Part shown: positions 381 to 11,785 of the stretch, in pieces
How the letters are laid out: every line of letters starts with the position of its first letter
Position numbering within the stretch: position 1 is the first letter of the stretch
From: Bacillota bacterium
GTDB lineage: Bacteria > Bacillota > Sulfobacillia > JAJZYS01 > JAJYTV01
Length of the DNA: 64,000 nt
Reading direction: 5' to 3'
NCBI GenBank assembly: GCA_021799275.1
Contig: JAJZAT010000012.1
Coordinates: 1-64,000 of the forward strand
Made by a program: the position numbers and the translations under genes
The notes under the pieces: model-generated
What the model saw: the letters and a program-made list of their open reading frames with translations, nothing else
The model's database searches: none
What the model was told of the DNA's origin: nothing

Positions 381-1517
381 CTAGCTCCTGCTCACGAACG
401 CATCGAAGCGGTCGAAGGCCGCCTGGAGAGTTGCGTCGAGAACATGAGCATAGACCTGCGCGGTGAACGCAAACGACTTGTGCCCCAGCATCTTCGAGAT
501 CGCCACGATGTCGATGCCGGCCTGGAGGCCGAGCGAAGCGAAGGTATGCCGCAGGGAATGGAAAGAGTAGGTCGGCAAGCCGAGGCCGTCGCGTACACGT
601 TCGAAGAACGTCTCCACCGACCGTTCGGAGAGGGGGCGACTGTCTTGGCGTACAAAGACCAAGCCATGTTCGTCTGATTGCAGGGGTTCGAGCAGAGCGG
701 TGAGGTGGGCTGTCAGCCGGATAGTGCGAAAGCTCTTGCTCGTCTTGGGGTAGTCTTTGATGATCGCCGGCTGCCGCGGGATCTCGACTAGAGCCCGCTG
801 CACTGACACCATACGGGTCTTCCAGTCGATGTCACCCCACCGAAGGGCAAGGATTTCGCCGAGTCGCAAGCCCGTCTGCCAGGCAAAAGTCGGAATCCTG
901 GCCATGGTGTCGTCCATCCCGGCCAAGGCTTGGTCGAGCACACGCATTTGCTCACGAGTGAACGCTTGGACCACCTTGGGGGACTGCTTCGGTGGACGCA
1001 CCAGGGTTACCGGGTTGTCGCGGATCATTCCGGCCCGCCTCGCCTCATTTAGGGCCGCCCGCAGCACTTGGCGCGCGTAGGCACGGCGGCGGGGAGAGAG
1101 GGGCTTCCCCGTCGGTGTAACCGCGGTGGCCAGCTCGGCCTGCCAGCGCTGCACGTCCACCACCGTCAGGCGGCCAATCTCGATGTGTCCGATGTGGGGC
1201 ACGATGCGCAAGCGCACAAGGCTCTCGTACGATCGGTAGGTGGAAGGCTCAAGCTCCTTGCCGTGGGTCGACAGCCAGCCTGTCAGCCACTCTGCGACTG
1301 TCGTCTTTGGCGGCGGTGAATATCCGGGTCCTTCTGCGCGCAGCTCAGTTGCTCGCTTCTGCCAGTACTCGTTGGCGGCCGTCTTGTTCCCATGGAAGGT
1401 CTCTTGTAGTCGCTGGCGCTGGCCGCCTGCACGTCGCGGCAGATCCCACGTCAGGCGGAACGTCGTCGGCCGATCAGGGCGCTCCCCCTTGCCGGGACGC
1501 GCGACGATGTTGGGCAT
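381..1517 (-). CDS. Tyrosine recombinase (phage/element integrase)
   Basis: Site-specific recombinase expected to insert and excise a mobile element. The protein has an N-terminal arm-binding region, a SAM-like core-binding domain (WLTGWLSTHGKEL onward) and a C-terminal catalytic domain. Catalytic residues are visible: Arg in TGLRLGEI, Lys in YPKTSKSFR, the HSLRH box, His in LGHKS and the Tyr nucleophile in VYAHV near the end. I chose ATG 1517 (378 residues) because GGGAGTG lies just upstream; the frame stays open to a TTG at 1691, but that start has no clear ribosome site. The stop is followed by a palindrome and candidate att repeats. Immediately upstream is a SigK-like gene fragment, so the element may sit in that gene and extend leftwards out of the window. 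Confidence 0.9.
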   Translation of the reverse strand: MPNIVARPGKGERPDRPTTFRLTWDLPRRAGGQRQRLQETFHGNKTAANEYWQKRATELRAEGPGYSPPPKTTVAEWLTGWLSTHGKELEPSTYRSYESLVRLRIVPHIGHIEIGRLTVVDVQRWQAELATAVTPTGKPLSPRRRAYARQVLRAALNEARRAGMIRDNPVTLVRPPKQSPKVVQAFTREQMRVLDQALAGMDDTMARIPTFAWQTGLRLGEILALRWGDIDWKTRMVSVQRALVEIPRQPAIIKDYPKTSKSFRTIRLTAHLTALLEPLQSDEHGLVFVRQDSRPLSERSVETFFERVRDGLGLPTYSFHSLRHTFASLGLQAGIDIVAISKMLGHKSFAFTAQVYAHVLDATLQAAFDRFDAFVSRS

Positions 1518-1871
1518 GCAAAACGTCACTCCCGATGTGTCTGCTGATCGGGGCGTCGCGAGCTTATCCGCCTGTGGACCATCCTCGGCCGGGGTGGTTG
1601 ACTCGTCGGCGGCCTGCCGGGCGGGCGACGTCATCACGATAGAGCGTTCTTCGGAGAAGCGGCGCCAACCTGCGAACTCTTGATATGCCAAAAATCCCGC
1701 GGGGTGCGGCTCGTTGCTCGATGGTGTGCAAAGGCTGTCCTGGAGCGGCTTCCGCGGCCCATTAGCTCACGAATGCCGATACTGCGGCATCGCGTTCTGA
1801 GGAAATCGGGGACCATCCCGGGGACCGGGCGGACATGGTCCTTCCTCGTGAGGAGGCCTCGTGCATGTCGG
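1518..1871. other. Region between integrase and SigK fragment, no supported gene
   Basis: Open frames here look like chance products of high GC; I see no convincing excisionase. The stretch contains two GGGGACC repeats near 1805-1822. It should contain one element-chromosome junction if the neighbouring SigK fragment was split by integration. Confidence 0.4.
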
Positions 1872-1967
1872 CTTGACGATATGGGCGACAAGACGAAGGT
1901 TGCGTTCGATCAGCAGTTGCCGGGCAGTATGGTCGCCGCCTCTCAGCCGACTGATGGCGTCGCCCTC
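1872..1967 (-). pseudogene. sigK: SigK-like sporulation sigma factor fragment
   Basis: A 32-residue stretch in one minus-strand frame runs from EGDAISRLRGGD to LLIERNLRLVAHIVK. This closely matches the start of sigma-70 region 2 in the mother-cell sporulation factor SigK, whose consensus is LIEHNLRLVAHIVKKF. Similarity stops abruptly after HIVK: the next residues (PTC) and all that follow have no sigma character. The frame is open back to an ATG at 2072, but the residues before EGDA do not look like a SigK N-terminus and a terminator overlaps that ATG. It is therefore a broken gene, or the 5' part of one interrupted by the adjacent integrase element. No C-terminal SigK part is visible in the window. 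Confidence 0.6.
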
Positions 1968-2072
1968 TTGCCGTATCGGTCTACGGCGACGCCGCGATTC
2001 GGTTACTGCATTCTTTCGGGCAAGGCGCGCGAAGTCGCCGCGCACCCAGCATACCTGGGGGAGCCTGGACAT

Positions 2073-2097
2073 AAAAGGCCCGCTTGTCCGGCGGGCC
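2073..2097 (-). terminator. Rho-independent terminator
   Basis: On the minus strand a 7-bp GGCCCGC/GCGGGCC stem with a 7-base loop is followed by TTTT. It probably ends the minus-strand transcript of the cassette that finishes at 2281. Confidence 0.65.
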
Positions 2098-2280
2098 GAT
2101 CGAGTCCATGGCGTCTGGCAGCGATCGACGCGGATTCCGAGAACACACACGCCGGCTCGAGCTACCAAAGGAGCGCCGCGGTCCACCACTGCGGCACCCA
2201 GTCGCTATTCAGCGTCATGCATAAGTCGTCTGCTGAGACCGCCCTCAGGGGGGACACGCAACCGAGCCGAAGCGGGTCTC

Positions 2281-2916
2281 TTACGAGGTGGCTTGTGGCG
2301 TAGGGTGTGGCTTGGGTTGCCTACTGATGTCCAACGCCTCGGGTTTGCAAATGAACCTTTGCACAACTAGGCCATCCGGGGCGAACAGCCTCTGCTTTCT
2401 GGCGCCAGTGGCGACGATGGCAGTGTCTGCGCTCATGGCTATGACGGGTTCCCCCTGCGAGACCAGACCGGCTTCGGTCGCCATGATTACCGCTTGGATG
2501 CAAAGAGACAGGCCCCCACTAACCAAGTTCATGGTCTGGACAATCGTTTTCAGCTTCGAGTCGTCCGCGCCCGGGATGAAGGCATCATCGAACGGCAGAC
2601 CCGCCTGCACTATTTCGACGCCGTTAGCCTGCAGCTGTTCCCTGACATTCGGGTCGGGGATCCCAGTAGGCACTCGAGTTGATTCCCTCCCTGCGACGGT
2701 GGTGCCTCTCGGGAAAGTGCAGGCGATGACCTGAATCTCCTTCCCTGCAAAAGACTTCGCTGCTCGCAGCGGGCCATCTCCATCAGCGGTAAACATCACG
2801 ACCTTGAAAAGGTTCCACCGGGCAGCAGCGGCGCCAACTAGCGTGATCGTCTTACGTAGATTCTGCTTGCCCTCTCTGGAAAAGTAGTAGATTCCTTCGG
2901 ACTTACCGTCAGACAT
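2281..2916 (-). CDS. Stand-alone pyruvate kinase C-terminal-like domain protein
   Basis: 211 residues. The opening YYFSREGKQNLRKTITLVGAA, followed by alternating beta strands and helices, resembles free-standing proteins with the pyruvate kinase alpha/beta (C-terminal) fold. That domain lacks the catalytic barrel of pyruvate kinase. Segments such as KVVMFTADGDGP and IQVIACTFPRGT fit Rossmann-like strand-loop-helix units that could bind a small ligand. The start overlaps the end of the upstream gene by 8 bases, so the two are probably translated together. A cytosolic ligand-binding or sensing role is conceivable, but nothing in the sequence shows a reaction. The family call is by eye and moderate. 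Confidence 0.5.
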   Translation of the reverse strand: MSDGKSEGIYYFSREGKQNLRKTITLVGAAAARWNLFKVVMFTADGDGPLRAAKSFAGKEIQVIACTFPRGTTVAGRESTRVPTGIPDPNVREQLQANGVEIVQAGLPFDDAFIPGADDSKLKTIVQTMNLVSGGLSLCIQAVIMATEAGLVSQGEPVIAMSADTAIVATGARKQRLFAPDGLVVQRFICKPEALDISRQPKPHPTPQATS

Positions 2917-3415
2917 GCAACTGGCGCCTCCCCTGGGTTAATATCAGGTTCGCCACATCTGGCGAATCGATTGGGTCCAGCCCGCCCTGGATTGGCTCAA
3001 GGAGCAGCATTGTGATGTATGAGTTCATTGGGAAGGCATCCAACGTCGTGTCCTCGGGATGGATGCGAACATGGTCTTTGGGATAATTGATGTGGTCGAC
3101 CTCGAACCGAAGAATAAATGGGCGACGATGGCGTGTGGAACTACATTGGATGTGGTAGTTGTAGTCAACCTCGCGTACTTTCAGATGGCTACGCCCGTGC
3201 CTGCGACTGACCGTAACTACCCCTAAAGTTTCGCGGCCTATGCGAAGTGACGTTTCGCCGGTGACAATCGGTTCAGTTAGGCTTACTTCGACGAAGACCG
3301 GCCGATCCTCGGCACCGTCCACAACAACTTCCCACTGCCACGCGGTTGGCTGTCCGTGTAGTTGGCCTATTGCTGCTTCGACGGCGTGAACGTAGTCTCT
3401 GATCAGAAAAGCCAT
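2909..3415 (-). CDS. Conserved-looking protein of unknown function, cassette middle gene
   Basis: 168 residues. ATG 3415 is chosen because GGAGGA lies 5 bases upstream. I do not recognise the family. The protein looks soluble and beta-rich, with charged strands in the middle. Near residues 115-140 there is a cluster, RFEVDHINYPKDHVRIHP, with Asp and several His. This recalls the His-rich strand of small nuclease toxins such as the TumE group, but the match is too weak for a call. It lies between a gene that overlaps it at the 5' side and a pyruvate kinase-like domain gene that overlaps it at the 3' side, so the three form one unit. Confidence 0.6.
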   Translation of the reverse strand: MAFLIRDYVHAVEAAIGQLHGQPTAWQWEVVVDGAEDRPVFVEVSLTEPIVTGETSLRIGRETLGVVTVSRRHGRSHLKVREVDYNYHIQCSSTRHRRPFILRFEVDHINYPKDHVRIHPEDTTLDAFPMNSYITMLLLEPIQGGLDPIDSPDVANLILTQGRRQLHV

Positions 3416-3731
3416 TGGTCTCCTCCGAAAAACTGAAGGCTGGAGGGTTTTCCTCCAGCCTGTCCTTCGTGAAGTGACCAGGATGTTCCTGCTGCAGTTC
3501 CTGTTGTATAAGGAACTTGCGGACCCAGTAAGCCCACAGCTCTGCCACCGACTCCGGCAGGCCGTCAACACCGGCAATCCACCGTTCGTAGAACACCCAA
3601 TATGGGAGCGAGAATCGCACCTCAAACTCCCGCACGCGTTCAGCTGCAACATCCTCAGCGTAGATCACGCGCACCGGTTCTTCGATTCCCTCGATCAGGA
3701 TCGTGTGGTTCCTCTGTTCGTTGCGGATCAC
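3273..3731 (-). CDS. Small helical protein of unknown function, cassette first gene
   Basis: 152 residues from GTG 3731, which has GGAGG 8 bases upstream; a TTG at 3746 is possible but poorly placed. Residues 25-80 (EFEVRFSLPYWVFYERWI onward) are predicted by eye to be helical with many aromatics. After about residue 105 the frame runs out of phase across the next gene for 142 bases and becomes Arg/Ser-rich, which looks like non-selected sequence. Either the real protein ends early through a sequencing or genuine frameshift, or the tail is unusual. No family is recognised. It leads a three-gene minus-strand cassette. Confidence 0.5.
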   Translation of the reverse strand: MIRNEQRNHTILIEGIEEPVRVIYAEDVAAERVREFEVRFSLPYWVFYERWIAGVDGLPESVAELWAYWVRKFLIQQELQQEHPGHFTKDRLEENPPAFSFSEETNGFSDQRLRSRRRSSNRPTTRTANRVAVGSCCGRCRGSAGLRRSKPN

Positions 3732-4133
3732 GGAGACAACCTCCAAACGCAGCAGGTCGTGCGGCTAGTGTTCCCCATTCTCAGACGCCTAGTCAAGGGC
3801 AGTAGAACGGGTTCCGCACACACGCACACATCGACACACTCAATCTTATCCTTAACCCACCGGAATATTACACAGAGAGATGTGCGTGTCGCGCACTCTG
3901 TGGAGCCGTCCATGGTCCTCAGCGGAGTTTGGGAGTGGCTCGCGTAGCCTAACGCTGCCAATCGTGTTGGGAAGCGTCCAACGGTGTGCGACGGCTGCGG
4001 GACAGGTGTTCCGCTCGTGTGAGGCCGATCTGATCGAATATCTGAAGCCGGGCCCCAGGCAACAACGGCAGCCTACATGCCGCAGGAAACTGCGCCTTCT
4101 TGCCGTCCGCCTGCGCCTCATAATAGTCCGCCC
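3732..4133. other. 402-base intergenic stretch
   Basis: No supported gene. Short open frames on both strands lack ribosome sites and family features. It separates the ubiquitin-like operon (upstream on the minus strand) from the three-gene unknown cassette, so it probably carries the terminator of one and the promoter of the other. I see no clear -35/-10 pair. Confidence 0.4.
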
Positions 4134-4535
4134 TCACCTACCAAACAGGTTGCGGACCCAGCGCCACAGTATCTGCCAAAGTCCCTCTGGTCTCGCGTAC
4201 ATCGCATCGTAATATGCCTTACGGCGTATCGCTTCTGCGCTGCGCCCTGCTTCGACCTGCTCCTGCGTCCACGCCTCGGCCCAAAGAACCTGCCCATCCC
4301 GGATCCAGTAGTGCGACTTGCACATCTGCTGCCAGTTTCCAATGGAAGGATATAGCGTCGGGCCATGTTCTGTCTCTACGAATTGCCATTCTGTCGGTCC
4401 CAGGGGGGTCCGGATCTTCGCACCACATCCGCATGCGCAGAGATGAACAGCGATCCCAAACTCCTCGGATACGTATAATACTCCAGATGTCGCGTCTTTC
4501 GGCATGAAGTGCACGCGCTCAGTTCTAATCCTCAT
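4134..4535 (-). CDS. DUF6527 family protein of a ubiquitin-like operon
   Basis: 133 residues. ATG 4535 is chosen because it overlaps the E1 gene's TAG by 11 bases and gives the family's usual start (an ERVHFMP segment, then GVLYVSEEFGIAVHLCACGCG). The CACGCG cluster and a later Cys-Lys-Ser-His suggest a small metal-binding core, and LGPTEWQF plus the SHYWIRDG box near residue 80 are typical of DUF6527. DUF6527 genes accompany multiubiquitin-type Ubl and ThiF/E1 genes in bacterial ubiquitin-like operons, where a processing or protease-like role has been suggested. Here it is the last gene of the operon. The family call is good; the activity is unproven. Confidence 0.75.
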   Translation of the reverse strand: MRIRTERVHFMPKDATSGVLYVSEEFGIAVHLCACGCGAKIRTPLGPTEWQFVETEHGPTLYPSIGNWQQMCKSHYWIRDGQVLWAEAWTQEQVEAGRSAEAIRRKAYYDAMYARPEGLWQILWRWVRNLFGR

Positions 4536-5712
4536 CAGTCTCGCCAACAGACATGAGATCGGCCACCTCAAACAAGAGATGATAGTATGGCGATTTTTCC
4601 GCGTAAAACCCGCGCAACTGCTTATACCTAATAACCGCCAAGCTTGCATTGAGCGCATTTAGCTCAGCAATCTGGATATTGCTTCTATAAAAGTCGTCAG
4701 GACGATCTGCCAGCTCAACCAAGCCTCTCTCCGCCACACGTTGACCCGTCTCGGCAGAGAAGTATGTTATTCTCAACATTCCATTCAGTGGTCCACCTTC
4801 ACGATGAAGCCCCATGCCCACATCAATAAACGGTATCTGCAACGACCGCAGCAAGTCGATGATGTCAGCCCGCGAAGATCCCTTGTCGACGCAAACAAAG
4901 GCGAATGTTACGCCCTGTAGGTCGCTTTCGCAAGTGCTATCTATGAACTTTGGTCTAGTACTCAATCCGTATCGAAAGTTCTCATAACGCGCCACATAGA
5001 CTTCTGCTTTGGACTTGCCAAGCTCGTCTTCCTGGAGCCTTCCAGGGGATCTAAAGGCATTATGAACGTAGTATCGATCCACATCAAACGCACGAATCTC
5101 ACGTACGGGCGTTTTGGCTAACATATCTAGAACGTACGCTCCGGTTCCACCAAGTCCAATAATAGCAAGAACCTCATCATGAAATCTCGAAGACAAATCT
5201 ACAATTCCAGCTCTAGATGTGAGAGTGTCATTCAACTTAAACACAGAATCAACGTCTACCCGTTCTACCGTCCTAAAGGTATATGGATTAGCGTCATACA
5301 ATTGCATCGCAGGTCCAGAAATAATCCCTACGTAGCTTTCGATCTTCTCGTAAAAGTCAGCAAACTTTCCAGTTACCCGAGGCTTATTCGAAAACGAGCG
5401 CTCGACAACCACGTCCGGGCTGGCTGCGCTTAGAGGCAAGCTAACGGGTCCACCCGCAAGATTAGAGATTGGCTTTCCGTCCATATTACACGGAACCGAT
5501 CCCGCAAAATACACTTGGTGATCGTCTTGAACGACCTTGTTGGCGTCAACAAACACAAGTTTCGCGACAATAGCACCGACTCTCAACTCGCGGTTCGTGT
5601 CTAAGTACGGAATGTCTCTTATGACAAGATAGTTGCTATCAAAACTAACCGCGTACCCTCTATCTATCAGCCGCTTAATATCGTCATTATGACTGACCAG
5701 TCTCTGAAACAC
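4525..5712 (-). CDS. E1-like ThiF adenylyltransferase with N-terminal DUF6791-type domain
   Basis: 395 residues. Residues 1-165 resemble the DUF6791 domain found fused ahead of ThiF domains. Residues 180-385 form a ThiF/E1 Rossmann domain with the nucleotide loop GLGGTG (186-191), acidic DVD (210-212) and an FVCVDKGSSR segment (272-281) at the adenylation site. Such enzymes activate the C-terminus of a ubiquitin-like protein with ATP. Cys261 and Cys274 are candidate thiols, but no zinc CxxC pairs are present. The start overlaps the Ubl gene by 26 bases and the stop overlaps the DUF6527 gene, implying tight coupling. The DNA is visibly AT-richer than the surrounding chromosome, which suggests horizontal transfer. 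Confidence 0.85.
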   Translation of the reverse strand: MFQRLVSHNDDIKRLIDRGYAVSFDSNYLVIRDIPYLDTNRELRVGAIVAKLVFVDANKVVQDDHQVYFAGSVPCNMDGKPISNLAGGPVSLPLSAASPDVVVERSFSNKPRVTGKFADFYEKIESYVGIISGPAMQLYDANPYTFRTVERVDVDSVFKLNDTLTSRAGIVDLSSRFHDEVLAIIGLGGTGAYVLDMLAKTPVREIRAFDVDRYYVHNAFRSPGRLQEDELGKSKAEVYVARYENFRYGLSTRPKFIDSTCESDLQGVTFAFVCVDKGSSRADIIDLLRSLQIPFIDVGMGLHREGGPLNGMLRITYFSAETGQRVAERGLVELADRPDDFYRSNIQIAELNALNASLAVIRYKQLRGFYAEKSPYYHLLFEVADLMSVGETDED

Positions 5713-5938
5713 TGAATACCATACCTTCCTTCACCCTTACTGACCCTCCCGGTGCAAGTATGCCGGCTGGTTTATTCCCATGACCATTAGTGTACTTGAC
5801 GGAATATGTGATCTCCGGGTGTGACAGGTAGTCCGGGACCTCAAGCGTAACGACCTCAGCATAGGTGATTTCGCCCTTGGGCCATTTGTGCGGTGTGCCG
5901 TTGACGATGATCGTTACTTGCTTTTCGGGCTCTGGCAA
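5687..5938 (-). CDS. Ubiquitin-like protein, multiubiquitin-domain type
   Basis: 83 residues from TTG 5938, supported by GGAGGG 8 bases upstream. The whole protein is one beta-grasp domain of the multiubiquitin kind (PF14452): VTIIVNG, then PKGEITYAEVVTLEVP, YSVKY, and the closing VRVKEGMVFSVSETGQS. In this family several copies are often fused in tandem; here there is only one. The C-terminus ends in Gly-Gln-Ser rather than a free Gly-Gly, so conjugation would need trimming or different chemistry. It is the first gene of the operon and overlaps the E1-like gene. Its likely job is to be activated by that enzyme and attached to a target. Confidence 0.85.
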   Translation of the reverse strand: MPEPEKQVTIIVNGTPHKWPKGEITYAEVVTLEVPDYLSHPEITYSVKYTNGHGNKPAGILAPGGSVRVKEGMVFSVSETGQS

Positions 5939-6171: not shown

Positions 6172-8784
6172 TCACACCTCGAACACCTTGAGCACCTCGT
6201 CGCCGTAGTGGTTGATGACCTTCACGGCGATCTTGCCGGACTCGGGATTGGCAAACGGTCGGCTCACGGTCCGGTAGAGACTGCTCCACGCTGCTTCATC
6301 TATCTCCGTCCGCAGTGCCCGTTGAAGCTTTTCGTAAGGCTCATCCGCCCCTGTGAAGTAGGCGTGGCGCACGAAAAAGCTCTCGCCATTGTACTCCGTG
6401 TCGATGAACCAGCAGGCGATGTCGTCGGTCGAAGCGCTTCGGATCTGTCCAGTGGTCGGGTCATACACGTCTACGCCCTTGATCTGCACGACGAGCTGCC
6501 CGTCACTCTGCTTCGAGATGTCCACGTCTGGCTCGCCGAACACCATGAATAGATTTCCAGCACCCGTCTTCTTGAGCAGTTCGTCGCCCATGGCCAAGTC
6601 GGGGTTCATCTTGGTCGGTAGCACGGTCAGTTTGCCGTAGCGTTTCACCTCTTCGTCGACGTGCGGGTCGAAGGCAAAACCGCAGACGATCAGCATGTCG
6701 AACCCCACACCCTGCACAGCTTCCTTGGCTGCCTCCTTCACCTGCTGAGGGCCGACCGTACCGTGCTCAGGGCCTATGGAGATTGCCACGCGCCGAGCCT
6801 TACCTTCGGCATCTGTGTACTCTCCGCTGGCTTGTAGCCACGTCCCCGCATAGGGGTCGAGACGTTCAAAGATCAGCCGTTCTTCCTTGCGAGTGTTCTC
6901 TACACCAGCCTTCATCAAGTTATCAAGGATCATGGAGGCGAAGTCTTGATGCTTACGCGCTTCCTGCTCAGTCACCGTGACATCCTGTCCCTCGTCGTCG
7001 GTGGACAGCACGCGATGTGGTGACAGGCTTTCCACCGAGAACGGACCGCACACGCGTACCCGCTTGGTGTCTTCGTAGGGCTGGTCGAACAGCATCTCCG
7101 TGTCAGCGTGGCGGGCAATCGCAGCGTCGATCTGCTCGCGCGACAGGCCCTCGCTTATGTCCGGGTTGTTAGCAATGGACTTGAGTGTGACGTGCGGCGC
7201 GCGCCTGTACACGAACCCTTTCTTGATGTCTCTTTCCGCCCAGTGCTCGAAGGGGCGCTTGCCAGTCAATTCAGCTTCTTTCGAGACGCCTTCGGGTGAG
7301 TCGGCCAGCAAGTAGTAGGGGTACTTAGCTGACATCAAGCGCGTGCGTGCGAGCGCAAGTGCGACGCGGCTGGTGTCGCAGGTGATCCAGCGCCGTCCCC
7401 ACTGCTCGGCGACATATGCGGTGGTACCACTTCCGCATGTAGGGTCAAGCACTAAGTCCCCGGGGTCGGTGGTCAGAAGTAGGCAACGCTCGATTACCTT
7501 TGCACTTGTCTGAACGACATACACCTTGTCCATTCCGCTTCCAGATGCGGTGTCACTCCAGAAGTTTGATATCGGATTCACGGGAAAGTCGTCAGCAAAC
7601 CGTACATAAGACAGTGTACTGCCAGATTCCACCACACGGTTTGAGGCTATGAGATTGTCCATTCCCGCTTTATTAGTGGCCCAGCTACGACCGGCTGTTG
7701 GGTGATACAGCCGTTCGCCATAGCTAATAGGATAAATACAACTCTCCGTCCGTCCAGCGGATAATAAGATTTGATTGCGGTAGACACGAGAACCTTGCGG
7801 CAAGTTAGTGTGATCCGAACGTTCTTCGCTCGTCATCCGTCGCCTCGTTCCGTCTGGAAGTTGAACGAACGCATAGGCTGCGTCGCCCTCAAGTTCCTTC
7901 GGAAGGTACAAAGGTCGCACCTTGTTTTGCTCTATATAATTGGCATACCACAAGACGAAGTCCGTAACAGCAGGTATGGAGTCTGTTCCAAGTCCCGCTG
8001 TTTTCTTGATTGTGATTATTGATCTAAAATTTTCGCTTCCAAAAACCTCATCCATCACCGACCGTACGAGATGGACATTCTCGTCTCCAATCTGCACGAA
8101 AACACTACCGGTCTCGGTCAGCAGTTCCCTGGCAACAACCAGGCGGTCACGCAGATACGCCAAGTAAGAGTGAATACCCAGCTTCCAGGTGTCGCGGAAT
8201 GCGCGGACTTGTTCGGGCTGGCGAGTCGCATCCTCGGCCCTGCCGTCCTTCACATCACGCTTGCGTGTGCTCACCTGCCAGTTGGAACCGAACTTAATAC
8301 CGTAGGGCGGATCAATGTAGATGGTCTGTACTTTACCCTTGAGTCCCTCTTTCTCTGCCAGTGAAGCCATCACCAACAGCGAATCGCCAAGGATCATGCG
8401 GTTAGTCCAGTTTTGCTCGTGGTGGTAGAAGTCGACTTTCTGGTCAAACTCGTGTGGACCGCCGTTGAAGTCGGCGAAGAGGTTCAGCAGATCGTCACCA
8501 GGTTGTTCGATGCGCGGAAGGGCGTCGATTATGGCCTGCGGGTGGATCTTCTCCTGGATGTAGATCGGGACCACGGGGACTGCGAGATCCTCGCGGTCCT
8601 GCTCGTCCTTGCCCTTCCACACCAGTTGCGGATCAAGCGAAGGGTCTCGTGGGTAGAGCATGGTCTTAGGGGCAAGTTCCTCGTCAGCCACGAAGTCGCG
8701 CAACTCCTCCGTGGGGATATTGGTGCGCTTATCCTTGTGGCGGATGGATTCGACCCTCGTCACGCTGGCGTTGTTCCTAGCCAT
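6172..8784 (-). CDS. Type III restriction system methyltransferase (Mod)
   Basis: 870 residues. A beta-class amino-methyltransferase that would methylate adenine in a short asymmetric site and supply recognition for the paired Res subunit. The catalytic motif DPPY is at 158-161 and the S-adenosylmethionine-binding motif DPTCGSGTT is at 447-455; in the beta class the catalytic motif comes first, as here. The region between them is the likely target-recognition part. The C-terminal 350 residues are long for a Mod and probably contact Res. The gene starts inside the last codons of the res gene (8-base overlap), so both are co-translated. Mod follows Res in transcription order. Confidence 0.9.
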   Translation of the reverse strand: MARNNASVTRVESIRHKDKRTNIPTEELRDFVADEELAPKTMLYPRDPSLDPQLVWKGKDEQDREDLAVPVVPIYIQEKIHPQAIIDALPRIEQPGDDLLNLFADFNGGPHEFDQKVDFYHHEQNWTNRMILGDSLLVMASLAEKEGLKGKVQTIYIDPPYGIKFGSNWQVSTRKRDVKDGRAEDATRQPEQVRAFRDTWKLGIHSYLAYLRDRLVVARELLTETGSVFVQIGDENVHLVRSVMDEVFGSENFRSIITIKKTAGLGTDSIPAVTDFVLWYANYIEQNKVRPLYLPKELEGDAAYAFVQLPDGTRRRMTSEERSDHTNLPQGSRVYRNQILLSAGRTESCIYPISYGERLYHPTAGRSWATNKAGMDNLIASNRVVESGSTLSYVRFADDFPVNPISNFWSDTASGSGMDKVYVVQTSAKVIERCLLLTTDPGDLVLDPTCGSGTTAYVAEQWGRRWITCDTSRVALALARTRLMSAKYPYYLLADSPEGVSKEAELTGKRPFEHWAERDIKKGFVYRRAPHVTLKSIANNPDISEGLSREQIDAAIARHADTEMLFDQPYEDTKRVRVCGPFSVESLSPHRVLSTDDEGQDVTVTEQEARKHQDFASMILDNLMKAGVENTRKEERLIFERLDPYAGTWLQASGEYTDAEGKARRVAISIGPEHGTVGPQQVKEAAKEAVQGVGFDMLIVCGFAFDPHVDEEVKRYGKLTVLPTKMNPDLAMGDELLKKTGAGNLFMVFGEPDVDISKQSDGQLVVQIKGVDVYDPTTGQIRSASTDDIACWFIDTEYNGESFFVRHAYFTGADEPYEKLQRALRTEIDEAAWSSLYRTVSRPFANPESGKIAVKVINHYGDEVLKVFEV

Positions 8785-11700
8785 GAGCGATCTCCTCTCT
8801 TGATTCCGCCTGAGTCTCTTTCAGAAAGCGACGGATCAGACTCTGTGCTTCCCACGGGTCGACGACTTCGACAAACGCCCAACGCCCGAAGCCGCCGTGG
8901 TTGTTAATGGCGGGGACCCACAACGTCCGCGCCGTAGCGACCTTGGCGGCTTTGTCTTTCTTCTTCTCGCCGGTGACTTCGACGATCAGGTTGAGCAGGT
9001 TGTCTTGGCCGTGGCCGACGTCAACGCACGCGATGAAGTCGGGAATGTAGTTCCTCTCCTCGCCGTTGAGCGTGTAGGGGATGGTGAAGCCGAGGTTGTG
9101 GTTCTTGACGTATCGAACGACCTCGCTCATGTCCTCAAGTGTTTGGGCCAATTTCTGTTCCCACGAGTCGGTGTCGGCAACGACGTGGGATACGTGGCAC
9201 TTGTCCTCGCGAGTGGCCCAGACGGGTCTGGTGGTATCGAAGTCTACGTAACGGGTGGTGCCGATGGTGTCATAGGGACGCAGAATGGGTTTGACGGCAG
9301 CAGTACCGTCCGTTGTGGCGACGATGGCCTTGTAGATGCGATCGGTGGCATCATGTGCGAACTCAATGAGTAGCAGTAGTTGCGGGAAAGTGTTGTCCTT
9401 GAGCGTCACGCATTCGGACAGCCAGCGCTTTGCTATGCCTAGCAGTTGCGGGAAGAGCCAGGGCTTATCGTTGCCCCCGTCATCACGGAAGTATTTCTCT
9501 AGCGTGAGCTTCGCCAGCAGGAAGGCGACTTCGTTGACTCGCCGACGCTTTAGATCGTCGAGGGTATGAATGCTGGACTCTCCCACGATCGGCGCATTCT
9601 CTGTCTTTGTGGGGAGGTCAGCGGTGGAGAGGCTCATCTTGGACTCGTCAGTAAAGGTCGCGGTGAGTCTCTCGCCGACTACGTCGTAGCGATAGCCCAG
9701 TAAACGTGGGAATCTGATCTCACAAGCGTTCCGGCTTTCGATGGCGCGGACGCGGGTCGGCATGGGGCCTGGCTTAGGGTCCTTGACCGCACCACTGGAG
9801 GGGATGAAAGAGAACGGCACCCCGTAAACTTCCGCGTACTCGGGGTCGAAGTGGCCGCTCTCGTTGGCGGCGTAACTCATGCGACGCAAGGCCCGCCCTA
9901 CCACCTGCTCGCACAGAAGCTGGGTGCCAAAGGCGCGCACGCCGAGAATGTGGGTGACCGTGTTTGCGTCCCAGCCCTCAGTAAGCATGGAGACGCTTAC
10001 CACGCACTTGACGTGCTCGCCTAGTTTGCCTTCCTTGCCGACGGTGTTCATCACTTCGCGAAGCAGGTCTTCGTCGGTGAGGTTATCGGCGTCGCGGCCC
10101 GGGAAGCGGATGCGGTATTCCGCCTTGAACTCGTCGATCTCGCGTGACGCGATCTTCTTAAACTCTTCGCTCATTGATTCGCCGGATTCGAGCTGTTGGC
10201 TGTCAACCAAAATGGTGTTCGGGCGCTGCAGCCAATGGCCATCGCCATCATCATTTCGGAAAATGGGCAATTGCCCGGCCTGCACGACGGTCTCGTTGTC
10301 GATCTTCCGTTCCCAGCCAGCGATGTAGTCGAAGACCAGTTTCGAGACGTTGGTGTTGTTGCAGACAACGATGAACACCGGAGGCGTGATGCCACGTTCC
10401 CGCGCCTCGGCGTTCTGTTCCCACAGACGGTAGTATTTCTCGTAGTTGCCATAGAGGCTCAAAAGTGCCCCTTGCAGTTCGACAGGGAGGTTGGGTTCCC
10501 CGCCGACTGCATCGGTCTTCCGGCCCTTCTTTGGCAGGTGCTCGCGTATGCGCAGCCAGAGGTCGCGATAGGTCGGCTGATCACCGATCATCGAATCGTC
10601 GGCGACGGGCACCCTTGGAACCTTGACGATTCCAGCCTCGATCGCGTCGATGAGGGAGAAATCGGAAACCACCCATGGAAAGAGCGTGCCCTCTGGGTAG
10701 CCAGATCCGCGCAGGAAGAACGGTGTCGCCGAAAGATCGTAGATAGACTTGACACCGATCTTGTCCTTTACGGCCTCGATGCCCGATATCCAAATGCGGG
10801 CCTCTTCGTCGCGGCTCTTGGCTTCGACCCGATCGTCGCCAGTCAGGGCTTCTCTCTCACCATCCGGTTTGCGCCGATAGCAATGGTGGGCCTCATCGTT
10901 GATGACGATAATGTTCTTCTTGGAGCCAAGGTCGCGACAAACTCTGCGCACCATCTGATCGGGGGTCTCGGTGAACGGGTTGGCCTGTCCATCGGCGAGG
11001 ATCGACTTGGTGATCTTGCCGGCCTCCACCCTTTCACGCAGTTGGAACGCATGGTAGTTGGTGATCACAAACTTGGCCTGCGTGAGCTGGTCTTGTAGCT
11101 GAGCCGGAACGATGTCGCGCTGTCGGTAATAGTTCTCGGGGTCGTTAGGCAGCAACACTCGCAGGCGGTCGCGGATTGTGATGCCGGGTGTGACGATCAG
11201 GAATGTGTCGGAGAAGCGTGCATCTTGCGGGTTGGCTCGCTTGTTGAGTGTGTGCCACGCGATGAGCATGGCCATGACCACGGTCTTGCCAGTGCCAGTA
11301 GCCATCTTGAACGCTGTTCTCGGCAGGCCGGGGTTGGAGGTGTCGTTCGCTTTGCGCAGTTCATTCTCGATCCATGTTTCGCCGTATTTCCGTGCCACTT
11401 CGGTTATGTAGATCGCGGTTTCCAGGGCTTCGTTCTGGCAGAAGAAGAGCTTCTTCTCGCGACTCGGATCAGTCCAGTAGGCGATGAGGCGTGCGGTGGT
11501 GGGCGTGACACCATGGTATCCGCCCCTTCGCCACAATGAGACGCGACGCCGGATGTCGTTGACGAGCCTGTTCTCCTCGATCCGTTCCTGCGTCCACTCG
11601 GTATCAAACAGCGCCGCAGGCGCGCCCTTCTTCTTCTTGGGCGGGGCGATCGGCACGAAGTAGGAACTGGTGCGACGGCCATCGACGATCTCGTTGGTGA

Positions 11701-11785
11701 TCCCTTCATCAGAGAACGCGAAATGACGGGTTGGCTCGTCGAAAGGCGAGTTGATGATCGGGTTTTCTATGACAACTTGCCTCAC
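8777..11785 (-). CDS. Type III restriction subunit (Res), helicase-nuclease
   Basis: 1002 residues, GTG start with GGAGGG upstream. An SF2 helicase-type ATPase coupled to a nuclease. Walker A ATGTGKT is at 162-168, the DEAH box at 297-300, then the SATPF motif and a C-terminal RecA-like half with QVVGRALRR. Near residues 915-960, IPDFIACVD followed by IVEVTGEKKKDK fits a PD-(D/E)xK nuclease core. It cleaves unmethylated foreign DNA together with the downstream Mod. The frame is intact with all expected motifs, so the system looks functional. It sits at the promoter-proximal end of the pair, with only a small conserved gene further upstream. Confidence 0.9.
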   Translation of the reverse strand: MRQVVIENPIINSPFDEPTRHFAFSDEGITNEIVDGRRTSSYFVPIAPPKKKKGAPAALFDTEWTQERIEENRLVNDIRRRVSLWRRGGYHGVTPTTARLIAYWTDPSREKKLFFCQNEALETAIYITEVARKYGETWIENELRKANDTSNPGLPRTAFKMATGTGKTVVMAMLIAWHTLNKRANPQDARFSDTFLIVTPGITIRDRLRVLLPNDPENYYRQRDIVPAQLQDQLTQAKFVITNYHAFQLRERVEAGKITKSILADGQANPFTETPDQMVRRVCRDLGSKKNIIVINDEAHHCYRRKPDGEREALTGDDRVEAKSRDEEARIWISGIEAVKDKIGVKSIYDLSATPFFLRGSGYPEGTLFPWVVSDFSLIDAIEAGIVKVPRVPVADDSMIGDQPTYRDLWLRIREHLPKKGRKTDAVGGEPNLPVELQGALLSLYGNYEKYYRLWEQNAEARERGITPPVFIVVCNNTNVSKLVFDYIAGWERKIDNETVVQAGQLPIFRNDDGDGHWLQRPNTILVDSQQLESGESMSEEFKKIASREIDEFKAEYRIRFPGRDADNLTDEDLLREVMNTVGKEGKLGEHVKCVVSVSMLTEGWDANTVTHILGVRAFGTQLLCEQVVGRALRRMSYAANESGHFDPEYAEVYGVPFSFIPSSGAVKDPKPGPMPTRVRAIESRNACEIRFPRLLGYRYDVVGERLTATFTDESKMSLSTADLPTKTENAPIVGESSIHTLDDLKRRRVNEVAFLLAKLTLEKYFRDDGGNDKPWLFPQLLGIAKRWLSECVTLKDNTFPQLLLLIEFAHDATDRIYKAIVATTDGTAAVKPILRPYDTIGTTRYVDFDTTRPVWATREDKCHVSHVVADTDSWEQKLAQTLEDMSEVVRYVKNHNLGFTIPYTLNGEERNYIPDFIACVDVGHGQDNLLNLIVEVTGEKKKDKAAKVATARTLWVPAINNHGGFGRWAFVEVVDPWEAQSLIRRFLKETQAESREEIAHG

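Follow-up and report, generated by a model that had tools for sequence, protein, structure and literature searches.

The Bub pathway is reportedly the subject of papers by Gong (2025) and by Ye et al. (2026), both cited in PMC13373217, the title of the latter being said to concern protein conjugation. Its Citrobacter components BubA, BubB and BubCD are represented by solved structures (PDB 9ea4, 9ea5, 9ea8, 9eae and 9eav), and the BubCD mutant D104A falls on the JAMM aspartate. Under the name type 6e, Iyer et al. 2006 listed operons with one to three repeats of a ubiquitin-like protein (Ubl) and an E1 fused to JAB, together with an inactive E2/RWD-like protein and a metal-binding protein for which a zinc finger was proposed; a subset has an E1 with an unknown N-terminal 'domain X' instead of JAB, which was unassigned in 2006 and for which a JAB-like role was guessed (PMC1779556, Table 1 row 6e and section 14). 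Judged by protein matches, Bub is type 6e in the cases examined, because the proteins of a Citrobacter freundii plasmid operon (L118) match the solved ones, the JAB-E1 corresponding to BubCD with E=1e-253, the E2-like domain to BubB and the polyUbl to BubA, of which a fragment ending at Gly229 has been solved. Among 14 sequences of the E2-like BubB family (Prok-E2_E) there is no conserved cysteine, and Ser-Arg-His is invariant in all 14. The classical form, found in Synechocystis pSYSX, Methylocystis and Agrobacterium plasmids, combines multi-Ub, an E2/UBC that is separate or fused, JAB-ThiF and DUF6527. In such E2/JAB-type operons the Ubl ends in ...TEGG, or in another Gly followed by a tail, or runs straight into the E2, so that cleavage by a JAB is required.

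The locus analyzed here lies in a 64,000-nucleotide stretch of contig JAJZAT010000012.1 (the window, taken at its full length) of a Bacillota bacterium, whose assembly has 3.14 Mb in 61 contigs, is 97.5% complete and is not closed. Its features are the following:

5938..5687, minus strand: Ubl gene, TTG start, 83 aa, one beta-grasp domain (PF14452, Multi_ubiq), protein ending in TGQS
5712..4525, minus strand: E1 gene, GTG start, 395 aa, N-terminal DUF6791 and C-terminal ThiF
5218..5712, minus strand: DUF6791 domain (PF20590), E1 residues 1-165, possibly with an E2-like fold
4535..4134, minus strand: DUF6527 gene, 133 aa, small metal-binding (zinc-finger-like) protein
5687..5712, minus strand: overlap of the Ubl 3' end and the E1 5' start, 26 nt, position kept in relatives
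4525..4535, minus strand: overlap of the E1 stop region and the DUF6527 start, 11 nt

The preliminary description had read 4134-5938 as a Ubl-E1-DUF6527 trio in overlapping minus-strand frames, and this reading is borne out by strong Pfam and NCBIfam matches and by the recurrence of the same gene order in relatives. The Ubl scores 64.5 bits against PF14452 (cut-off 24.5) and the DUF6527 protein 85 bits against PF20137, so that both of the profile assignments made there are recovered, and the E1 scores 148 bits against PF20590 (DUF6791), 41 bits against PF00899 (ThiF) and 625.6 bits against NCBIfam PRK06153.1-2. The DUF6527 gene starts at 4535; the mechanical open reading frame extends upstream to 4658, within the E1 gene. 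A genome-wide search with the E1 yielded a related set of 80 loci, with E1 proteins about 55-75% identical to the query. Both the Ubl and DUF6527 are found in 79/80 of them (the locus lacking the Ubl is cut by a contig end), the order is always Ubl-E1-DUF6527, and the trio occurs in this order in at least 78/80 loci. This recurrence rules out chance, and the trio at 5938..4134 on the minus strand is a genuine mobile module.

The distribution is broad. Twelve phyla are represented among the 76 E1 proteins of a maximum-likelihood tree, and in several well-supported pairs the partners belong to different phyla, such as Peptococcaceae next to an actinobacterial bin, or one bin each of Chitinophagaceae and Geobacteraceae, some rows of the tree being metagenome bins with possibly misplaced contigs. 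The E1 is present on 116 plasmid records, often conjugative or mobilizable, and in none of 50,697 phage records; in the plasmid records that were opened NCBI annotates the trio under those names, except in a Methylomonas record (L088), where DUF6527 is not annotated and an IS256 transposase follows the E1. Of 337 genomes drawn evenly from one class (that of Afipia), five have DUF6791, including the draw's centre genome. Taken from tree and records, the picture is that of a horizontally mobile cassette spread across many bacterial phyla. Damaged cassettes are also observed, for which assembly errors are possible: DUF6527 is split by about 2.4 kb in L033 and was not found in L080, and the E1 frame is broken in L048, L071 and L082.

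The G+C content of the trio is 50%, compared with 66.6% for the window as a whole, and along the sequence it drops from about 60-65% to 48% at the trio. DUF6791 is absent from all of 100 kin genomes, of which five belong to the same genus. On account of the low G+C and this absence from kin, the trio was probably acquired from outside. A tyrosine integrase (PF00589) is encoded near the contig start (381..1691, minus strand), and together with the G+C drop it is consistent with an integrated island of about 1 to 13 kb. Directly upstream of the trio, on the same strand, lies a Mod/Res restriction-modification-like pair (6172..11785, minus strand), with Mod matching the MTase_III profile PDLC03632 at E=1e-284 and Res the NCBIfam BPTD_3080 family restriction endonuclease at 1224 bits. 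A functional link of this pair to the trio was considered and rejected, since no homologue of either gene occurs in the 80 related loci, and the neighbourhood of the trio is thus local. Downstream, on the same strand, there are open reading frames of 211 aa (2281-2916), 247 aa (2909-3652) and 157 aa (3273-3746), the last two overlapping; these frames at 2281..3746 show no significant Pfam, NCBIfam or PADLOC match, and none recurs in the 80 loci. An Rfam scan of the first 13 kb of the window gave no matches.

The lack of an E2 or JAB gene in the operon, already pointed out in the preliminary description, extends to the related set, as none is adjacent in any of the 80 loci. Profiles for E2 (Prok-E2_E) and JAB were built from sister operons and score E=1e-6 to 1e-51 on positive-control loci; over the 80 loci the E2 profile has no match and the JAB profile no significant one, with only two weak matches at E=0.02 and 0.05. 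It had also been proposed that a partner is encoded elsewhere; an E2 or JAB at another place in the genome would make the trio an incomplete system. The genome does hold one Prok-JAB gene, and as the assembly is 97.5% complete, a missing contig is possible. However, that lone JAB match is on a different contig, next to a sulfur-carrier cluster (ubiquitin-like/MoeB-ThiF-rhodanese), the profile search of this 97.5% complete assembly found no Prok-E2_E and no Prok-E2_B, and the trio alone recurs on plasmids. In 50 genomes (the window's own and 49 relatives) Prok-E2_E is above the cut-off in five, and the loci recovered are distinct multi-Ub operons, each with a JAB-E1 of its own. A partner encoded elsewhere therefore appears unlikely, the genome having no Prok-E2_E or Prok-E2_B and its only JAB being in an unlinked cluster, and we give very little credence to an incomplete trio.

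Concerning the Ubl, its end had been described as Gly-Gln-Ser without a diglycine, and the sequence indeed ends in TGQS. Exactly these residues are found in 72/80 loci, the others having TSQS, TGES, TSES, SGQS or TGQA, and divergent relatives end in TVQS, TIQS, TDKS, TSRS, TNRS or TGES. Read from these alignments, the Ubl ends by the rule Thr-x-(Gln/Glu/Lys/Arg)-Ser, immediately followed by the stop codon, with the glycine dispensable, because divergent relatives keep the pattern without it. The possibility that this end is conserved merely through its overlap with the start of the E1 gene is contradicted by a count of sites in the two frames: three sites in the overlap that are silent in the Ubl but change the E1 are variable in 17, 22 and 18 of 80 loci, whereas four sites at which substitutions alter the Ubl but not, or hardly, the E1 are variable in 1, 4, 4 and 1. 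Because E1-changing sites vary and Ubl-changing sites scarcely do, the codon pattern indicates that selection acts on the protein end and maintains the C-terminus in the Ubl frame. Since a T-x-[QEKR]-S end at the stop leaves nothing to trim, JAB is probably dispensable here. The Ubl has a single domain in 68/79 of the close set and extra upstream Ubl domains in 11/79, so a one-domain Ubl is normal in this set. It has no conserved cysteine.

Adenylation by the E1 is likely, because 88 E1 sequences keep the ATP-site residues D210, D212, H217, R221, K235 and D276 with little or no variation. The same comparison of 88 sequences shows no conserved cysteine: C274, which adjoins the Mg-binding Asp, is replaced by Ser or Ala in divergent E1s, and C75, within DUF6791, is Cys in 9/11 divergent members and His or Tyr in most close ones. 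The E1 has no match to the JAB profile, no rhodanese domain and no conserved CxxC. Against the PDB, the ThiF part has TcdA as its best match and also matches Citrobacter BubCD (E=0.003) and MccB (E=0.099). A generic adenylator of this kind could also modify the Ubl C-terminus with a small group, in the manner of MccB and microcin C7, or serve a sulfur carrier like ThiS/MoaD, and type 6e pathways were themselves predicted from sequence alone. We find this quite improbable: a sulfur transfer is at odds with the lack of a diglycine, of a rhodanese and of a conserved CxxC in the E1, and conjugation is favoured by the conserved metal-binding partner and by the close sister Bub, in which BubA, BubB and BubCD stand together in solved structures and for which the title of Ye et al. 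(2026) is said to concern protein conjugation.

The N-terminal DUF6791 domain has five invariant residues, H65, S108, K110, K123 and Y127 (88/88), and its AlphaFold2 model (pLDDT 86) shows the order helix-helix-four/five strands-long loop-strand-helix. A Foldseek search of 350,542 PDB chains places the E2 enzymes Atg10 (E=0.03) and Atg3 (E=0.065) at ranks 1 and 2, with Atg10 a second time at rank 8, UBE2H at rank 19 and Rad6b at rank 29; these PDB matches span most or all of DUF6791, while the other top matches, largely CorA, cover short stretches. In a viral structure library, ranks 7 and 13 go to E2 enzymes and rank 34 to a CBASS E2 domain. None of these structural matches is significant, TM-scores being about 0.2-0.4 (0.3 for the best hit, with E=0.03). 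At the sequence level, hhalign aligns DUF6791 with Prok-E2_E over 28 columns in the right register with P=0.007, compared with 0.18-0.97 for control families; this local match does not extend in a global alignment, HMMER searches between the two families in both directions give nothing above controls, and DUF6791 has no E2 match in Pfam. Homology of DUF6791 with Prok-E2_E by sequence is not claimed, the hhalign match being only local and HMMER negative, and a relation to JAB was discarded (hhalign P about 0.6). Sequence-profile searches of the PDB with DUF6791, and likewise with DUF6527, return chance matches only. We consider an E2-like fold of DUF6791 about as likely as not. When the two families are aligned together, the invariant S108 is placed opposite the Ser that never varies in the W-S-R-H motif of Prok-E2_E (14/14), and as aligners always align something, this correspondence is to be read as a lead. 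The designation of the operon as minimal, with no E2, is accurate in that there is no separate E2 or JAB gene, but may mislead, since the best whole-domain structural matches of DUF6791 are E2s.

The third protein, DUF6527, carries the motif H-x-C-x-C-x-C ... C-x2-H, with C33, C35, C37, C72 and H75 present in 66/66 aligned relatives of the same type, and its AlphaFold model (pLDDT 92) has no PDB structural match and no known fold. It could be the transferase itself: the E1 would make Ubl-AMP, a free Cys of the H-x-C-x-C-x-C motif would take the thioester, and DUF6791 would position the Ubl. Its four cysteines are the only invariant ones in the whole system, and together with H75 and H31 they exceed the four ligands of one zinc, which would leave at least one Cys spare. 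But DUF6527 is also encoded in operons with an E2-like protein or E2/UBC and a JAB-E1 (Synechocystis L116, Methylocystis L121, Agrobacterium L120), and in such E2-bearing operons C35 is Ser (L116) and C37 is Thr (L121), so that these two cysteines are not universal; in addition, the pattern fits a zinc finger and the model lacks a known fold. This weakens the earlier suggestion that DUF6527 performs the missing E2 step, which was rejected for the main model: occurring in operons with and without E2, DUF6527 does not look like an E2 substitute, and we consider a transferase role rather unlikely. In the best model it is the part common to both operon types and would act as an accessory.

The reading that we retain is a Bub-like conjugation in which the Ubl would be activated and transferred by a single Cys-free DUF6791-E1, with DUF6527 as accessory, and we give it a probability of roughly 0.6; it keeps the earlier idea, which we judge right, that the E1-like enzyme may transfer the Ubl directly. 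According to this model, the reactive C-terminus of the Ubl (Thr-x-x-Ser, next to the stop) would be free from synthesis onwards, so that JAB maturation would not be required. The ThiF domain would adenylate this C-terminus with ATP, and the Ubl would then reach its target without passing through a cysteine thioester on an E1 or E2, either from the acyl-adenylate or via a non-Cys residue of DUF6791, the E2-like part, for which Ser108, His65, Lys110 and Lys123 are the candidates. The zinc-finger-like DUF6527 would help to select or present targets. Adenylation activity, transfer route, E2-like role and targets are what we infer, as is a role in stress or against phage. A more specific version, with a complete system of at most two catalytic polypeptides that has neither a catalytic Cys in E1 or E2 nor a maturation protease, in which the terminal Ser would be adenylated, the Ubl carried as an oxyester on Ser108 of an E2-like DUF6791 and passed to a target chosen by DUF6527, seems unlikely to us as a whole.

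It should be noted that regulatory genes accompany many of the related loci. An HExxH protein is encoded just upstream in 49/76 of them, almost always divergently, and downstream in 2, and the two examples that were scanned are IrrE/M78 peptidases; other loci have WYL, UvrD or sigma-70 genes, or a pair of an ATPase and a winged-helix protein. In a Cytobacillus plasmid (L114) a HATPase and winged-helix pair (692..2203), CapK+CapS-like, lies upstream of a DUF6791-type trio, and DarT and macro-domain genes lie downstream. In the window there is no regulator gene beside the trio, which follows the Mod/Res genes. The DNA-damage regulators CapP/CapH, CapW and CapK/CapS have been reported for CBASS, Bil and Bub, and the same source notes that phage protection by Bub is as yet undemonstrated (PMC13373217). 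The IrrE/M78, WYL and ATPase plus wHTH genes of the related loci resemble CapP/CapH, CapW and CapK/CapS, which supports a stress or defence role of the trio only by association. In 2016 it was stated that 70% of PF14452 genes are beside a DUF955/COG2856 'toxin-antitoxin' pair (PMC4963859); this pair may be better read as an HTH plus metallopeptidase regulator of the CapH+CapP type, such as lies upstream of operons of this kind (L111, L113, L115, L116).

If the three genes suffice for conjugation, a minimal ubiquitin-like system would have a strong candidate in the trio, which would directly test whether E2 Cys chemistry and JAB maturation are optional; if the model is true, a function would be assigned to DUF6791 and DUF6527, two families of unknown function. 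For specialists, its value lies in an E1 and a Ubl without conserved Cys and in a Ubl that would need no trimming. The cassette is short and mobile and occurs in many culturable bacteria and plasmids, which makes reconstitution in laboratory E. coli practical. The trio is real, but this type of operon had already been listed in 2006 (PMC1779556): the class has been known since then, and the system does not represent a novel type.

Compared with the ThiS/MoaD-ThiF/MoeB systems, the trio has no diglycine, and the sole near-conserved Cys of its E1, C274, varies in divergent members. With BilABCD it shares a Ubl and an E1-like protein, the Bil Ubl (8u38) being related to multi-Ub proteins; Bil has an E2 with an active-site Cys (BilB) and a JAB (BilC), neither of which was found for the window trio. 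The last domain of the 'ZDHYS365 multi-ubiquitin domain protein' (PDB 9cd2) matches the window Ubl with E=1e-4, and 9cd2 aligns to the C-terminal end with a Ubl from a DUF6791-type plasmid operon; it is a multi-domain protein, whereas the window Ubl has one domain. The Synechocystis pSYSX cassette (PMC4963859; L116), which adjoins a divergent HTH and ImmA/IrrE pair, is similar in its Ubl class, E1 and DUF6527, and differs in having a separate E2/UBC gene and a JAB-E1, both absent from the window trio.

The likeness to Bub includes a PF14452-class Ubl, a related E1 domain, the presence of DUF6527 in many Bub-type operons and similar upstream regulators in relatives, and the trio probably works like Bub. 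Bub has an E2-like BubB (Prok-E2_E), separate or fused to the Ubl, a JAB fused to the E1 and a Ubl with Gly plus tail; the window trio, in contrast, has no E2 gene, no JAB and no Gly freed by cleavage, and its Ubl ends in T-x-x-S. As E2 and JAB define strict Bub and both are absent, the operon is filed under the domain-X subset of type 6e and not under Bub; in this compact subset DUF6791-ThiF would stand where Bub has its separate E2-like gene and its JAB-E1 fusion. It resembles that subset in its PF14452-class Ubl, its non-JAB N-terminal E1 domain and its adjacent metal-binding protein, with a signature of the C-x3-C...H-x2-C type, and in its scatter across phyla; DUF6791 and DUF6527 were not named in 2006, so the match is one of architecture, and the window Ubl is one-domain. 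From its position and context we infer that domain X is DUF6791. On these comparisons, the operon in the window is a member of the type 6e domain-X subset, a compact sister of Bub that lacks the E2 and JAB genes.
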